Source of the DNA: a virus | Length of the DNA: 37,577 nt | Direction: 5' to 3' (one strand) | Virus record (IMG/VR): IMGVR_UViG_3300043419_001353 | Span: 1-37,577 of that record | Part shown: positions 4,944-25,179 of the stretch, in pieces | How positions within the stretch are numbered: position 1 is the first letter of the stretch | Layout of the letters: each line of letters begins with the position of its first letter | Translations under genes and position numbers: made by a program | The notes under the pieces: model-generated | What the model was told of the DNA's origin: nothing | Database searches by the model: none | What the model saw: the letters and a program-made list of their open reading frames with translations, nothing else

Positions 4944-5054
4944 AATATCCACGTAAAGCCCTTTTTTGGCCCCTCCCTGTCCTTGGATAGGCAAAGAGCC
5001 TAGTAAAGGCTTAGAGAGCCTCTAGAGGACGACTACGGGGTATATCAGATAAGA

Positions 5055-5070
5055 TGTTTCACGTGGAACA
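5055..5070. promoter_or_regulatory. parS-like ParB binding site
   Basis: TGTTTCACGTGGAACA reads TGTTCCACGTGAAACA on the other strand, a match over 16 bp to the broadly conserved bacterial chromosomal parS consensus. The central CACGTG is intact and both arms fit. No ParA or ParB gene is in this window, so it would be bound by host ParB or a phage ParB elsewhere. Confidence 0.75.
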
Positions 5071-5151
5071 ATATGTTACAGTTGACTAAAATGTCTTCTT
5101 CTCGCCGACGCACTTTTTTTCGCACTATATGACACTGAATTTATCGAAAGG

Positions 5152-5163: not shown

Positions 5164-6663
5164 ATGAATAAAAAGAATATAGTTATAGTCGGAGGCGGAA
5201 CCGCTGGATGGCTAGCTGCTCTATTCGCTAAAAAAAGATTCCCAGACGAAAATATTATGCTAATAGAAAGTTTAGATATAGGCATCTTGGGTGCTGGCGA
5301 AGGAACTGTTCCAGCCCTGCTTAAATCATTTGACTATCTAGACATAAGTCTTAAAGACTTGATATCAAACACAAAGTCAACAATTAAAAACGGAATTAAG
5401 TTCACCAATTGGTCTGAAGATGGCGGCAGCTATATGCACGGCTTTACTTTTGAGCAAAACATATCGCCTTTCATCGAGTCTATTGAGTTTAAAGATAAGC
5501 ACTTCTTAAATTCAAGAATATTTGGATATGCACACAAAATGAAGGATGAAGATCATTGCTACTACACAATGATATCAGACCAAAACAGGGTACCTTATGG
5601 TAACGTAGACGTAGATTATGAATACTACTCTCAGCATGCTATTCATTTTGATGCTAGAGTTATGGCCAAGTTCCTCAAAGAAAAATCTTTAGAAAGAGGA
5701 GTCATCTACATAGAAAATGAAGTTGTAGACTGCCAAATTGATGGTGAAGACATAAAGTCAATTACATTAAAAGACAATACAATATTAGAGACTGATTTTT
5801 TAATAGATTGTACAGGATTTGCCAGGTATTTCTTAGGTGGCAAACTTGGTGGGGAATGGATTAGCTATTCTGATAGCCTACCAGCTAATTCTGCTCAGGC
5901 ATTTTTTATGGAGATGAATAACCCAGAAGAGATAGAGCCTTACACTGAATCAACCGCTATGGATTTTGGATGGGTATGGAAAATTCCTTTACAACATAGA
6001 TATGGTTGTGGATACGTATATGACTCAAGACTTATATCTAATGAGGATGTTAGAAAAGAAATTGTTGAAAAATATGGTGAAGTTCAGTTTGTAAAGCACT
6101 TTGTTTTTGATCCAGGAACATTTAAAAATATTTGGATTGGTAACTGCATGGCTGTAGGTCTAGCTGCAAACTTTGTTGAACCGCTAGAAGCTACTTCTCT
6201 GCAGATGACTGCGGCAGCTTTAAATAGAGCTTTTCACCCAGAGGTAGATATCTTTAACCCATTTAGCATGAAAGACAGGATTAATAGTCGCTCTTATACT
6301 GACTCTGAAATAGTTAAAGATTTTATATACTTACATTACATGACAAACAAGACAAATAATAGTTTTTGGAAAGACTTTACAATAAAAAATAAGATGCCAG
6401 ATTCACTAAAGCCAGTTTATGACAATATTGTAAATGTTGAGTTAATACATGAATATGACTTAATGTGGCCAGAGTATAGCTTTTATATAGTTGCATATGG
6501 GAATGGTATTATGGATCAGTCAAAGCTAATAGATTTTGCAGATAAAAACCTTAATATCTTTAGCAAACAAATTCACTCAAATTTTGATATTAAAAAGAAG
6601 TTGTCTAAAAAAAGCTGTAAGCATTATGAGTTCTTAAAGATAAACGGAGGGTTTAATGAATAA
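5164..6663 (+). CDS. Flavin-dependent halogenase homologue (499 aa)
   Basis: Belongs to the tryptophan halogenase family, in which FADH2 and O2 plus chloride or bromide make hypohalous acid for a bound substrate. Visible: FAD loop GGGTAGW (10-16), GEGTVP (45-50), candidate catalytic Lys75 (or Lys79) in TIKNGIKFTNW, the family signature WxWxIP as WVWKIP (270-275), and the flavin/chloride strap NFVEPLEATS (336-345). Length (499) is normal. The signature argues for a halogenase over a generic monooxygenase. It overlaps the next membrane gene by 8 nt. Related genes are known from cyanophages. The substrate may be free Trp or a protein side chain; it needs reduced flavin from the host. All key motifs appear intact. 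Confidence 0.85.
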   Translation: MNKKNIVIVGGGTAGWLAALFAKKRFPDENIMLIESLDIGILGAGEGTVPALLKSFDYLDISLKDLISNTKSTIKNGIKFTNWSEDGGSYMHGFTFEQNISPFIESIEFKDKHFLNSRIFGYAHKMKDEDHCYYTMISDQNRVPYGNVDVDYEYYSQHAIHFDARVMAKFLKEKSLERGVIYIENEVVDCQIDGEDIKSITLKDNTILETDFLIDCTGFARYFLGGKLGGEWISYSDSLPANSAQAFFMEMNNPEEIEPYTESTAMDFGWVWKIPLQHRYGCGYVYDSRLISNEDVRKEIVEKYGEVQFVKHFVFDPGTFKNIWIGNCMAVGLAANFVEPLEATSLQMTAAALNRAFHPEVDIFNPFSMKDRINSRSYTDSEIVKDFIYLHYMTNKTNNSFWKDFTIKNKMPDSLKPVYDNIVNVELIHEYDLMWPEYSFYIVAYGNGIMDQSKLIDFADKNLNIFSKQIHSNFDIKKKLSKKSCKHYEFLKINGGFNE

Positions 6664-6934
6664 TATACAGTACGTATTATCTAAAATGAAATCTAGATCA
6701 TACTGGAATATCACTAATACGATAGAGTTTATTTCTTTTATGACTAAGGTTACTATAATTGTCCCAGGCCTGCTTTTTGGCAAACAGTGGTGGTGGCTCT
6801 ACGTATTTGCACTTGCATCAAGTATGTCACTTATATGGACATCCACACGAAAGACTTTACCAACAATAATTGTCTTTAATATTATTTGGTGCTGCTTGGC
6901 AGCCGCCGCAATACTAAAACATTTCTTGTTTTAG
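6656..6934 (+). CDS. Membrane protein (92 aa)
   Basis: Basic N-terminus, then about three hydrophobic segments (roughly residues 26-42, 45-61 and 68-90), with a Trp-rich turn (KQWWWLY). Overlaps the halogenase by 8 nt, so co-translated. The convergent oxygenase ends 4 nt inside it. Function unknown; it could anchor or supply the halogenase, but that is only positional inference. Confidence 0.7.
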   Translation: MNNIQYVLSKMKSRSYWNITNTIEFISFMTKVTIIVPGLLFGKQWWWLYVFALASSMSLIWTSTRKTLPTIIVFNIIWCCLAAAAILKHFLF

Positions 6935-7779
6935 TGTTCTTTGAACTCGCCCATAAAGGCATCAGAAAGCTTTTCGCCCTCTAATCCAGAAGCCTTGTAC
7001 TTTTCAATTCTTTCTCTTGTAAATTGAGGATTTTCTTTGAGCGGCCTCATCCAAATATCAATAAAGTCTTTTAGAGAAAGATTGTCTTTATCTTTGATTT
7101 GCTCGTAATACTCTGGTGTCTTGTAATTATAGAATGTACCTGGATTATCTTCTGCCTTTAATACAAAGTTGGAGAACGCATATCTTCTTCCAGTAGTAAC
7201 TGGCTTTACTCCATGTGCATGTGGATTAAATGCACCATGGATTACAAGGTCTCCTCTTTCTGGCTTAATTGTAAGCTGATTGTCTTCTGGAGTCCCCATT
7301 GCCTTGTTTCCTTCAGCATCAATGTTGACATAAAAAATTTCTCCGCCTTCAAAATCTCCAAAGTATGCTACTAGGCCATAGTCTAATTCGCAGCAAGTTT
7401 TCCAAACATCTACCTGTGAAAGTCTGTGGCACTCTCCCTTCCCAGGTGAATCTGAATGAGTAAACATTCCCTCATTCATTTCTGGAGTAATTATTAAAAC
7501 ATTGCCTTGTGGATGCATTACGTATTCTGGGTAAATAAGCTCGCTTGCCTTTTCCCAAAGTGGGTGTATTGCTTTTAATGGTGGGCTAATTTTGTTTGAA
7601 TACCAACTTATAAGCGTATCCTTATATTTGTCTTTAAGATCATAGTCTTTTAATTCATCTTCTACTGTTTTACATTCTTCATCAGTGTAGAAACCTTTAA
7701 AAATAAAAACTCCGCTAGGTGTTCCGTAGTCATCTGGGAAAAAAGAAGCTTTAATGCAATCTTCTCTGTCGTAAAACAT
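6931..7779 (-). CDS. 2OG-Fe(II) oxygenase, prolyl-4-hydroxylase-like (282 aa)
   Basis: Iron and 2-oxoglutarate dependent dioxygenase. It has the facial triad H108-x-D110 (FTHSD) and H189 (NPHAHG), with Arg198/199 (TTGRRY) to bind 2-oxoglutarate. The jelly-roll strand pattern (GLVAYFGDFEGGEIFY, then GDLVIHGAFNPHAHG) is typical of P4H-like enzymes. It starts at TAATG, overlapping the 44-aa gene upstream. It lies far from the five-gene oxygenase cluster at 25263-29613 and is the most divergent. Proteins of this kind hydroxylate Pro or other side chains; substrate not shown. A unique N-terminal 95 residues may give specificity. Confidence 0.85.
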   Translation of the reverse strand: MFYDREDCIKASFFPDDYGTPSGVFIFKGFYTDEECKTVEDELKDYDLKDKYKDTLISWYSNKISPPLKAIHPLWEKASELIYPEYVMHPQGNVLIITPEMNEGMFTHSDSPGKGECHRLSQVDVWKTCCELDYGLVAYFGDFEGGEIFYVNIDAEGNKAMGTPEDNQLTIKPERGDLVIHGAFNPHAHGVKPVTTGRRYAFSNFVLKAEDNPGTFYNYKTPEYYEQIKDKDNLSLKDFIDIWMRPLKENPQFTRERIEKYKASGLEGEKLSDAFMGEFKEH

Positions 7780-15453: not shown

Positions 15454-18400
15454 ATGCCGCTAAACATTTTTGATGGTTCCAGCTGGAATCCTTTAAAGAA
15501 GATTCAAATCCATGATGGTGCATCTTGGAATGAATCAAAAGCGGCATATATATGGGACGGATCAGAGTGGAAGCCGTTACTTAGCTTACTTCCAAAAAAT
15601 ACAGCCTTGCCAGTTCTTTCTATACAGGGCCCTTCATTTTTTTATGCAGCACAAGAAACTGTTCAAACAACCAGTGGAAATTGGGAAAATTCCCCAACAC
15701 TTTTTGAATATCAATGGGAAAAATCTCCATATACACCATCTGGATATAATTGGACAAACATACTAGATAAAACATCTAGCACATTATTTTTAGATGAAGA
15801 TGAATGGAATACTCAACAAACTTTAAAATATGTTGGATACGTTGTTAGATGTAAAGTTACAGCAACAAATGCCGCTGGTAAAAATACTGATCCAGTATAT
15901 ACTTTACCTAGCCCAGTAATTGCACCTGAAAAACTTGGTGATATAAATGTAAACGTTGTTTCAAACGGAATAGTGGAGTTTACTTGGCAAAAGGTAAAGG
16001 GTGCTAACGACTATTATATGCAGTACCAGGGACCAGAAGTTCCATTTACAGAAATATCTAGCATGGTAAATAATTCTGATGCAGCAAAGGGAGTGTACAT
16101 TACACAAGGAACTACTTGCAAATTTACAATTGATACTGGCTCAGCTTCAGGAACTCTAGGAATATTAATTAACCCAATAAATACATCTAATGCATCTGGA
16201 ATGAATCTTAGCGGGTATGGTAAAAATGCAATAGTATATGATCTAAAGCCAATTAAACCTTCTGTAACCGCCACAATGACTTCATTTAGCTGGGGTGGAA
16301 GACTGACTTGGTCTAGTAATTTAATAACTCCAACTGGATGGACAGTATACAACAATGGTCAAGTATATGAATATTCTTTCCCATTCCATAGCGCTACAGA
16401 CACATCTTTAGATATTATGCAATTTGGTGTAGGCGGAACAACTTTCGGATCATTTACAGTACAAATTAATGGAACCTCTCCAAGATTTACAGAAACTTCT
16501 TGGACATCAACCCCACCATTAACAATTACATATCCAACAGTTGAGCTTCCAGTAAATACAACAGCACCAACTGTTTCTAGAAATGGCAGAGTAGTTACTT
16601 CAACAAATGGAACTTGGAGTAATTCAGATTCAATTTATTCATATATAACTGAATGGTATTCTAATGGATCGCCTATGAGTTTTGGAGTAGGTTCTTCAGT
16701 TGATTTTAGCACTAATACTTCTTATGATAATACAGAAATAACTTCATCCGTTTATGTTTTAACCACTGATTTAAGAACTACAGAAAAAACATTTAGCAGC
16801 AACTCAGTAACAATGGTTCCCTCTTCTGTAATTTGTGATTCAGCAGCACAATGTAACACTCCAGCATGTAAAGCATGTACATATGAATATAATATAAATA
16901 CAAACGTAGCAACTAGCGTATGCCCTTCTGGAACAATGGTCCAAAAGGTTTGCCTTACACCAGGAATTTGTGATAATATAACTACAAATGTTGGTTGCGT
17001 ACCAGTAGGAACAACTTGGTATTGTACCGAATCTTATAATGGTGGTGGAGTTGGCAACTGCGGAAAGACTACATCGAGTTTTAATAACTCTGGGTCTGGC
17101 TCTGGATACTCAAGAGCATGTTCAACAGTTGATTATCCAGCATGTCAATCAACTGGGCCAGCACCAACACTACTTTATTTATGCACAACATCTTCATCGG
17201 GTGCTGGAATTGGAAATTGTTCTTATACAACTTCAGCTACTAATATTTCTGCATCTGGTACTGGTTATAGCACAGCATGCAGAATTCAAGATACTGCTCT
17301 AGACTACACATATCCAGCATGCCAATCAACCGCTGCTCCATCGCTGCCTGCGTGTACTGGAACAATAACTAATGCTAATTCTTCAACATGTTCAGACTTA
17401 GGAAGAACATTATTGGGCGGATCTTCTTCTTATAATATTGCTTCCAACCAACAATGTTGTGGAGACGCACTTCCTGTTAATTCAGCTAATTGTGGTGGCA
17501 GCGTACCCTGCTCTAACTCAATATGCCAGGCTTGTAATCAGAGCCTAAGCTTTTCAGGTACTAGAGCATCGTCTGCATGCCCTTCTGGAATAACAAATTA
17601 TTCTGGATGCTATACACCAGGTACTTGTGAAAATATATTAACAGACACTACTTGCGTTGCCCCAGCAGCTATTTGGTACTGTACTACATCTGTACAATAT
17701 GCAGGAGTTGGCAACTGCGGACAATCAACTTCAGCAACAAACAGCTCTCAAACTGGATCTGGATACAATATAACATGTTCACAATCTGGATATCCAGCAT
17801 GCCAATCAACCGCTCCACAAGGCGGAGGTGGAGGAACAACCACTAATTGTTCAACTTGTGTTACACCTGAGTACTCTCGTGCTTGTGGTACAAATGGAAC
17901 ACAAACTGTTTGTATTACTCCTTCTGGATGTGCCGACATTATTGGTCCATGTGTTGAGCAGTCAACTTTTGCTCCACCCGCTTTCCCGTCGAAGTTCGCA
18001 CCACCAAGCTTCTTCGCACCACCAAGCTTCTTCGCACCACCAAGCTTCCCGTCGAAGTTCGCACCACCAAGCTTCTTCGCACCACCAAGCTTCTTCGCAC
18101 CACCAAGCTTCCCGTCGAAGTTCGCACCACCAAGCTTCTTCGCACCACCAAGCTTTAAGGCTAAGTGTCTAGCTCCTAACGCATTGGTATTGACTGTTAA
18201 TGGTCCAATAGAGGCTCAGAATATTAATGTTGGAGATTTATTGATAACAGTTAATGATCTTTATATGGATATTAATTCAATATCTACAGAAAAGAAATCT
18301 GCACCACTTTCAACAAGTGTCGGATTGACTAATACTGCAGTGGCTTCAGTAACGCTTAAGAATTCAACTTTAATTGGATTTAACAATATGGGTAAAAACT

Positions 18401-18627
18401 ATTCTATTACACAGCCGATATTTATTAAATCAGAAAATGGAATTGAGTATAAAAATGCTGGTGAAATAGAAATTGGTGAAATTATTATAAGCGTTGATGC
18501 TAAGGGTATTACCTCAGAAATACCAGTAAGCTCAATTGAAATAGATGATTTTGAATCAACAGTTTATGATATTAGAACCTCACCAGAACCTTGGTTTATT
18601 GTTAATTCAGCTCTAGTCATAGCTTAA
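15454..18627 (+). CDS. Large Cys-rich fibre with C-terminal Hint domain (1057 aa)
   Basis: Layout: N-terminal repeats of DGSSWNPL type (about 8-46), Ig-like beta domains (about 48-455), a Cys-rich region (about 460-833, roughly 38 Cys, with the module WYCT..GVGNCG...YPACQST repeated), Phe/Pro-rich repeats (839-901), then a 153-aa Hint (Hedgehog/intein) domain beginning at Cys905. The Cys modules could be disulfide knots after export or metal sites. The Hint domain could cut the chain before Cys905. The C-terminus lacks the intein HN and has no C-extein, so splicing is unlikely. AAGGAG lies 6 nt upstream. A second Hint fibre is at 23899. Likely a receptor-facing fibre; function inferred. Confidence 0.75.
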   Translation: MPLNIFDGSSWNPLKKIQIHDGASWNESKAAYIWDGSEWKPLLSLLPKNTALPVLSIQGPSFFYAAQETVQTTSGNWENSPTLFEYQWEKSPYTPSGYNWTNILDKTSSTLFLDEDEWNTQQTLKYVGYVVRCKVTATNAAGKNTDPVYTLPSPVIAPEKLGDINVNVVSNGIVEFTWQKVKGANDYYMQYQGPEVPFTEISSMVNNSDAAKGVYITQGTTCKFTIDTGSASGTLGILINPINTSNASGMNLSGYGKNAIVYDLKPIKPSVTATMTSFSWGGRLTWSSNLITPTGWTVYNNGQVYEYSFPFHSATDTSLDIMQFGVGGTTFGSFTVQINGTSPRFTETSWTSTPPLTITYPTVELPVNTTAPTVSRNGRVVTSTNGTWSNSDSIYSYITEWYSNGSPMSFGVGSSVDFSTNTSYDNTEITSSVYVLTTDLRTTEKTFSSNSVTMVPSSVICDSAAQCNTPACKACTYEYNINTNVATSVCPSGTMVQKVCLTPGICDNITTNVGCVPVGTTWYCTESYNGGGVGNCGKTTSSFNNSGSGSGYSRACSTVDYPACQSTGPAPTLLYLCTTSSSGAGIGNCSYTTSATNISASGTGYSTACRIQDTALDYTYPACQSTAAPSLPACTGTITNANSSTCSDLGRTLLGGSSSYNIASNQQCCGDALPVNSANCGGSVPCSNSICQACNQSLSFSGTRASSACPSGITNYSGCYTPGTCENILTDTTCVAPAAIWYCTTSVQYAGVGNCGQSTSATNSSQTGSGYNITCSQSGYPACQSTAPQGGGGGTTTNCSTCVTPEYSRACGTNGTQTVCITPSGCADIIGPCVEQSTFAPPAFPSKFAPPSFFAPPSFFAPPSFPSKFAPPSFFAPPSFFAPPSFPSKFAPPSFFAPPSFKAKCLAPNALVLTVNGPIEAQNINVGDLLITVNDLYMDINSISTEKKSAPLSTSVGLTNTAVASVTLKNSTLIGFNNMGKNYSITQPIFIKSENGIEYKNAGEIEIGEIIISVDAKGITSEIPVSSIEIDDFESTVYDIRTSPEPWFIVNSALVIA
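17968..18156 (+). repeat. FAPPSF coding repeat (63 aa)
   Basis: An 18-nt unit TTCGCACCACCAAGCTTC, encoding FAPPSF, is tandemly repeated and grouped in 63-nt superunits (FAPPSF three times plus PSK). Copies are near-identical, implying recent expansion or gene conversion. Residues 839-901 of the fibre. Confidence 0.85.
18166..18624 (+). other. Hint domain of the large fibre (153 aa)
   Basis: Starts at Cys905 in FKAKCLAPNALVL, like intein block A. The block-B-like strand is ITQPIFI, where the family often has TxxH/DHP; Gln replaces the expected His. The domain ends STVYDIRTSPEPWFIVNSAL, like block F, at the natural stop. Closely matches the Hint domain at 24718. Confidence 0.65.
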
Positions 18628-23898: not shown

Positions 23899-25179
23899 AT
23901 GTCAAAGAATATAGGTAGAAAAGCCTCAGCCCAAGATAACTTTACTGGCCCAAATTCAGTAACAGGCGTCACAGCCTCAGATGTAGGTACTAATAGAGCT
24001 TTTAATAACGGAGCAATTGTTGTATCGTGGACGGCACCAGTTGGTGGAAATCAACCAACAGGATATAAGGTTTACGAAGGTGCAAATGTAGTTGCTACTG
24101 TAGCGTTTGGTACAAATACAGCTACAATAGAAGGACTTGCATCAAACTCATCTAGATCCTACTTGGTATCTTCATATGATTCATATTTAGATAACAATAG
24201 CAACGGCGTAGCCGCACCAACAGTTACAGCTACAACCGTTCCAGATGCCCCAGTTAGCCCAACTGCAACTGCAGGAGTAAATAGAAATACAATTTCATGG
24301 ACAGCGCCAAATAATGGTGGAAAAGCAATTACCAACTATTATATTACCGCTAATGATGGAAAGACTGCAAACTCAGCATCAACATCTGTAGGAATAGACG
24401 ATGAAGCAAACACTTCTCAATATTTCAATGTTTATGCAGACAATGCTAATGGCAGATCAGCAATATCAGCTAACACAGCAACTATTACTACTCAAGCACC
24501 ATTCTTCCCACCATTCTTCCCACCATTCTTTCCACCGAGCTTCTTCGCTCCACCAGGGTTCTTTGCCCCACCGAGCTTCTTTGCTCCACCAGGGTTCTTT
24601 GCCCCACCAGGGTTCTTTGCCCCACCAGGGTTCTTTGCCCCACCGAGCTTCTTCGCTCCACCATATTTCTGGTTTGCTCCACCAGGGTTCTTTGCCCCAC
24701 CGAGCTTTAAGGGCAAGTGTTTGTCACCAGATGCAGTAATACTTACTACAACTGGATGGACAAAAGCCAAGGATCTTAAAGTTGGAGATAAGGTAATTAC
24801 AATTGATGGAACACATATCAATATTGAATCCTTAACATCAGATAAAACATCTCAGGCTTTGCCAGAGACAGTATCTCTAACAAATTCAGAGGTTCTTTCA
24901 ATAACAGAAAAGACTTCAACCCTAATCGGGTTCAACTACAGAGGAAAAGATTACTCAATTACTCAGCCAATATTTGTAAAGACAGAAAATGGAATTACTT
25001 ATAAAAATGCTGGAGATATTGAGATTGGAGAAATCTTAATTAAGGTTGATAAGGATGGAATTATCTCAGAAGTTCCAGTAACCTCAATCGAAAAGGATGA
25101 TTCAGAATCTACAGTGTATGACGTAAGAACGTCTCCACAGCCTTGGTTCATCGTTAATAATTTCATAGCAATAGCCTAA
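23899..25179 (+). CDS. FN3 fibre with Pro-rich linker and Hint domain (426 aa)
   Basis: Two fibronectin-III-like domains (about residues 15-112 and 113-197, with SWTAP twice), a Phe/Pro-rich repeat (202-270, FFPPF then FFAPP(S/G)), and a 153-aa Hint domain starting at Cys274. The same arrangement as the 1057-aa fibre but with a different exposed N-terminus, so the repeat-Hint cassette seems modular. FN3 domains often bind sugars or cell surfaces. AGGAG lies upstream. The Hint block-B His is replaced by Gln (ITQPIFV), as in the paralogue. Self-cleavage at Cys274 would expose or release the FN3 part; this is inference. Confidence 0.78.
   Translation: MSKNIGRKASAQDNFTGPNSVTGVTASDVGTNRAFNNGAIVVSWTAPVGGNQPTGYKVYEGANVVATVAFGTNTATIEGLASNSSRSYLVSSYDSYLDNNSNGVAAPTVTATTVPDAPVSPTATAGVNRNTISWTAPNNGGKAITNYYITANDGKTANSASTSVGIDDEANTSQYFNVYADNANGRSAISANTATITTQAPFFPPFFPPFFPPSFFAPPGFFAPPSFFAPPGFFAPPGFFAPPGFFAPPSFFAPPYFWFAPPGFFAPPSFKGKCLSPDAVILTTTGWTKAKDLKVGDKVITIDGTHINIESLTSDKTSQALPETVSLTNSEVLSITEKTSTLIGFNYRGKDYSITQPIFVKTENGITYKNAGDIEIGEILIKVDKDGIISEVPVTSIEKDDSESTVYDVRTSPQPWFIVNNFIAIA
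24502..24708 (+). repeat. FFPP / FFAPP(S/G) coding repeat (69 aa)
   Basis: Tandem units of about 12-18 nt encoding FFPP, FFAPPS and FFAPPG. Like the repeat at 17968 in amino acids but using other codons (TTTGCCCCACCAGG), so the two tracts probably evolved separately or by convergence under protein-level selection. Confidence 0.8.
24718..25176 (+). other. Hint domain of the FN3 fibre (153 aa)
   Basis: Starts at Cys274 (FKGKCLSPDAVIL), contains VGDKVITIDG, YSITQPIFVKT, the KNAGDIEIGEI turn and VYDVRTSPQPWFIVNN. Same length as the other copy and similar throughout. Ends at the stop without His-Asn. Confidence 0.65.

Follow-up and report, generated by a model that had tools for sequence, protein, structure and literature searches.

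A chromosomal-type parS site within a conserved non-coding block of parAB-less phages, and its possible use of host ParB

Introduction

Theft of a partition site has been described for SGI1, which carries stolen parS sites and parasitises the parABS system of the IncC plasmid, with a demonstrated effect on stability (PMC10954446). Phages that possess a parABS system of their own are also known; RedRock, for example, encodes parA and parB, carries repeats of an 8-bp motif and is maintained as an extrachromosomal prophage (PMC7157519). A different solution is represented by AlpC, an actin-like protein of the Corynebacterium prophage CGP3, whose filament makes replication efficient and positions the element within the cell (PMC4446434). 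On phage lambda, parS has been employed as an engineered tag (PMC13190303). Hence parS itself, its parasitic use by SGI1, and phages with their own parABS are already known; natural phages with an orphan host-type parS are, as far as we found, unreported, searches of the open-access literature (preprints excluded) having yielded no such case.

Here, we describe such a site in a stretch of viral DNA of 37,577 bp (IMG/VR record IMGVR_UViG_3300043419_001353), which in its entirety is referred to as the window, and compare it with related phages, with bacterial chromosomes and with the wider IMG/VR collection.

Results

The window is a virus record of 37.6 kb and 38% GC that is classed as linear, and it is therefore probably a fragment. 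Its major capsid protein and portal have their closest named counterparts in Streptomyces phages of the Stanwilliamsviridae (~55-56% identity), and relatives of the capsid protein are encoded in more than 590 IMG/VR stretches. One relative of 113 kb, G039, gave matches to WhiB, RecA, a DnaB-like helicase, primase domains and Pol III alpha; in the literature, WhiB counts as an actinophage marker (PMC6802176, PMC10202952). The resemblance of capsid and portal to those of Streptomyces phages, combined with the WhiB match, makes a low-GC freshwater actinobacterial host likely. Elsewhere in the window, two large proteins (15454-18627 and 23899-25179) carry FAPPSFFAPP-type repeats and have ends that read like a Hint/intein-type domain; the protein at 15454-18627 had no Pfam match.

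The sequence TGTTTCACGTGGAACA stands at positions 5055-5070 (no strand assigned). The initial annotation had seen in it a near-perfect match to the 16-bp parS consensus, which we confirm: it is an exact copy of a variant of TGTTTCACGTGAAACA that is used by a bacterial chromosome, standing at parA in an actinobacterial metagenome-assembled genome (MAG) described below, and its slot is kept in relatives. No other match occurs in the window, even with three mismatches allowed (a second listed match is the same position on the opposite strand). From base composition, 1.6e-5 exact matches are expected on both strands of the 37,577-bp window, and dinucleotide shuffles of the window gave 0.26 matches at up to three mismatches. 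The earlier judgement that a chance match is very unlikely is thus borne out, with the qualification that the symmetry on which it also drew is imperfect: the inverted repeat comprises 7 of 8 pairs, the mismatch being T5 against G12.

Neither parAB nor a replication origin of the kind associated with chromosomal parS was found nearby. The window has no ParB_N match, and in 14 relatives, several of them of 105-120 kb, searches with TIGR00180 (parB_part), AAA_31/ParA and Phage_integrase matched nothing, the controls having matched; a PF02195 search of the relatives likewise found no ParB_N. The absence of ParAB noted at the outset is thus confirmed. The accompanying idea of a phage-plasmid gained no support: parA and parB were found neither in the window, itself a fragment, nor in the relatives of 105-120 kb, and the 113-kb relative has replication genes of its own. 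We rejected a phage-plasmid with its own parABS, as the searches, which covered ParA, ParB and tyrosine integrases, found none of the three in the 14 relatives.

The site lies in a non-coding block of ~200 bp (4945-5140; no strand) that aligns in relatives (L322-L324, L339-L351) and has no DNA match among annotated phage records. Within the block, a CAGTTGACT box (5079-5087; no strand) follows at a distance of 8 bp from the site, and a CGCACTTTTTTTCGCACTATAT motif (5109-5130; minus strand), which we used as a search anchor, reads TATAGTGCG... on the minus strand. This motif and its variants recur at many loci of related phages, by our own reading just upstream of minus-strand reading frames, and it looks like a candidate minus-strand promoter or leader. 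Beyond the block are a tryptophan halogenase gene (5164-6663, plus strand; PF04820, E=1.6e-103) and a 2OG-Fe(II) oxygenase-like gene (6931-7779, minus strand), the latter assigned from a PF13640 match below the curated cut-off and, by gene order, the convergent neighbour of the block in relatives G039, G010 and G067. In the window, the halogenase and the 92-aa ORF after it (5164-6934) separate the conserved block from the oxygenase, and both are absent at that point in these three relatives.

Absence of the site from relatives had been named initially, beside a failure of host ParB to bind, as what would refute the proposal; the site is, in fact, present in a number of them, so that this check did not refute it. 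In two relatives whose halogenase is 76% identical, the same 16-mer, TGTTTCACGTGGAACA, precedes the halogenase gene at the corresponding place, and in G039, G010, G025 and G040 this non-coding block also contains a parS-type site, with no halogenase following. In G039, G010 and G067, the block is situated between convergent genes, with rightward genes (accompanied by short ORFs where inspected) on its left and the leftward 2OG oxygenase on its right. The wider family is less uniform, since most sampled members lack the site, as do all 10 full genomes of Streptomyces and Rhodococcus relatives; it is not, therefore, essential to such phages. More distant family members, reached via the 2OG gene, yielded genes of 25-50% identity as best local matches, and the regions inspected had no parS block.

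In order to view the slot independently of its contents, blocks were collected from IMG/VR with a site-free anchor (CGCACTTTTTN0-4CGCACTATAT), which returned 38 copies. Three of these end inside or before the slot, leaving 35 that are at least partly readable, one of them cut. Of these 35 slots, 23 contain a parS-type site, 11 an unrelated sequence and one something else. Among the 23, the commonest variant is TGTTTCACATGAAACA (11 blocks), followed by TGTTTCACGTGGAACA (5), TGTTTCATGTGAAACA and TGTTCCACGTGAAACC (3 each), and TGTTTCACGTGAAACC (1); near-copy contigs contribute to these counts, there being 14 distinct sequences in the 21 blocks long enough on both sides. In every one of the 23, exactly 8 bp separate the site from the box, C[AT]GTTGACT. 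The per-column conservation is partly forced by the search expression. Upstream of the site, the block differs in both length and letters. Furthermore, the site is found in both orientations among related blocks, and in the lineage of G056, TGTTTCACATGAAACA has the neighbouring motif on its opposite flank. Such a combination of a fixed slot with variable upstream sequence, two orientations and the G056 placement fits DNA that a symmetric dimer recognises.

The palindrome could also be the stem of a transcript, forming an RNA or terminator hairpin, and the inverted repeat of the site and the further repeats in the block would accord with this. However, the block has no Rfam match, its fold score is weak (z -1.59), and, since the T5/G12 mismatch occurs in both orientations, a paired stem is kept on neither strand across all variants. 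We therefore rejected an RNA element as very improbable.

The 11 non-parS slots mostly contain an ATGGATCN6-7GATCYAT palindrome (L342, L346, L350, L352, L356, L365, L373, L377, L384, L387 and L388). Four non-parS slots were checked and lie at least six mismatches from parS, so that the slot contents look bimodal. We also considered this second palindrome as a host centromere and discarded it, as it occurs in only 4 of 79 Actinomycetes genomes, at one scattered place each, and is not enriched.

The same letters are found on bacterial chromosomes. In G077, a 1.3-Mb MAG labelled 'uncultured Micrococcales bacterium', parA (MFHVEQ...) has its start within TGTTTCACGTGGAACA, the adjoining parB matches solved Spo0J/ParB structures, and an rsmG-like gene has TGTTTCACGTGAAACA at its start; the names parA and rsmG were assigned by reading the sequences. 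An organism like G077 is a possible host of the phage. The CACATG variant, TGTTTCACATGAAACA, which is the commonest in the phages, also belongs to the parS cluster of Rothia amarae and to one in a 9.7-Mb genome from the same class sample. From these three matches, it follows that the letters of the phage sites are letters used by bacterial centromeres, and the phages thus carry the parS of another replicon without parAB.

These data bear on the main rival reading, that of an operator, according to which a phage or host transcription factor would recognise the parS-like palindrome and control the adjacent minus-strand promoter-like motif. The proximity of this motif, the constant distance of 8 bp between site and CAGTTGACT box and the position of the G056 site upstream of the motif are all in its favour, and an exchange of operator specificity would explain the 11 blocks with another palindrome in the slot. 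Conversely, the site letters, those of the CACATG variant included, are those of bacterial parS, G039 has a single parS-type site in its 113 kb, and the place between convergent genes in G039, G010 and G067 is a poor one for an operator. We consider an operator unlikely, and a DNA-binding centromere fits better than either an operator or an RNA element.

Exact parS palindromes were found in at least 120 IMG/VR stretches, as against 21 in the whole collection for an arm-swapped control, TCTTYCACGTGRAAGA. One abundance comparison between parS and a control is void, as both reached at least 120; the intergenic, multi-site and second-control comparisons are unaffected by this. Among the matches listed, a simple ORF call placed 77 of 147 parS palindromes between genes; for the control TGTTYCAGCTGRAACA, the figure was 6 of 120. 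Under a stricter criterion, by which no 50-codon open frame may run through the site, 25 of 147 remained compared to 1 of 120. Loci with multiple sites numbered 17 for parS and none for the control, again among the matches listed. The arm-swapped control has an intergenic share too (6 of 21). No ParB homologue was found by phmmer among the matches listed, and TIGR00180 revealed no ParB in 30 whole records that carry them; many records are fragments, and with one ParB query and one ParB model, distant ParBs can be missed.

Several of these carriers are plainly phages, including L084 and L031, where five exact TGTTTCACGTGAAACA sites each (L084:10535-11462 and L031:2657-3444) stand beside a gene for the terminase large subunit, with no ParB found in the stretch. 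These are arrays of orphan parS in other phages. A 15/16 match, CGTTTCACGTGAAACA, is present in the cultured Pelagibacter phage HTVC027P (MN698241.1; L597:10942-10957), at a place with no annotated gene and with 0.0012 matches expected in the locus; we do not count it as an orphan parS, as in our own reading the surrounding sequence is an open coding frame.

A functionless chance resemblance might be argued from the fact that the pattern was chosen after being seen and from the majority of sampled family members that are without the site. The low expectation in the window, the recurrence of such sites in numerous relatives and the excess across IMG/VR oppose this, and on the statistics and the conservation of the slot we rejected chance, which we regard as extremely improbable.

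Discussion

It is quite probable, judging from sequence comparison, that the site recruits host ParB. Our preferred explanation, to which we would assign a probability of roughly 0.6, is that an orphan host-type parS loads host ParB and that the phage gains positioning or segregation of its DNA. The initial proposal that the phage borrows host ParB is thereby upheld in part: the conserved and fixed non-coding context, the identity of the letters to actinobacterial chromosomal parS and the failure to find parAB speak for it, and its phage-plasmid version is left unsupported. Counting against the explanation are the lack of the site in most sampled family members, the other palindrome in 11 related slots and the fact that the phage site is usually single, whereas bacterial chromosomes often possess several parS sites.

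On infection, ParB of an actinobacterial host would load at the phage parS, close into a CTP-dependent clamp and slide onto the phage DNA on either side. In consequence, the phage genome would be handled like a part of the host origin region, tethered via ParA/ParB (in actinobacteria often near the pole) and possibly loaded with SMC, and it might stay within the nucleoid or, should the host divide ahead of lysis, be distributed to both daughter cells. The phage could gain placement, retention when the host divides, compaction or shielding. We infer the binding of ParB, its CTP-dependent spreading and its contact with ParA and SMC from established ParB biology, and, with them, a benefit to the phage.

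ParB might also be recruited for another gain, such as SMC loading and compaction, DNA protection, titration of ParB off the host chromosome, or silencing of neighbouring genes by ParB. All evidence for recruitment is shared by this alternative, and both SMC loading at parS and spreading over kilobases are known properties of ParB. For titration, one or two sites would seem a small number, though, and the present results do not separate these outcomes from one another; we deem such a gain rather improbable as the principal one.

Should positioning or segregation through host ParB be correct, phages would exploit the chromosome-segregation machinery of their hosts by means of a mere 16-bp site, which might explain how some phage genomes keep a fixed cellular place or survive host division. 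Phage placement could be tested with existing ParB-fluorescent strains. Furthermore, parS would be unsafe as a marker of bacterial chromosomes in metagenomes, and the letters of a phage parS may hint at the centromere sequence of its hosts. We propose only tentatively, and short of thinking it probable, that orphan host-type parS is a general phage strategy, in which many unrelated ParB-less phages carry one to five centromere copies and host ParB (and SMC) would treat the incoming genome as host origin region.

Compared with the chromosomal ParABS systems of bacteria, the 16-bp site is identical and the phage variants use chromosomal parS letters, but here the site is on a phage genome, in a single or few copies, with parA and parB absent. 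RedRock likewise infects an actinobacterium and has a centromere site; it differs in encoding its own parA and parB, in its repeats of an 8-bp motif and in its extrachromosomal prophage maintenance. AlpC of CGP3 also belongs to an actinobacterial phage element and serves intracellular positioning and efficient replication through a filament, yet it is a phage-encoded protein rather than a borrowed host centromere protein. The nearest precedent is SGI1, a mobile element that has no parAB of its own and carries the parS of another replicon; there, the system exploited is that of a helper plasmid and the effect has been shown, whereas the sites of the phages described here match the host chromosome, and their effect is one that we infer.
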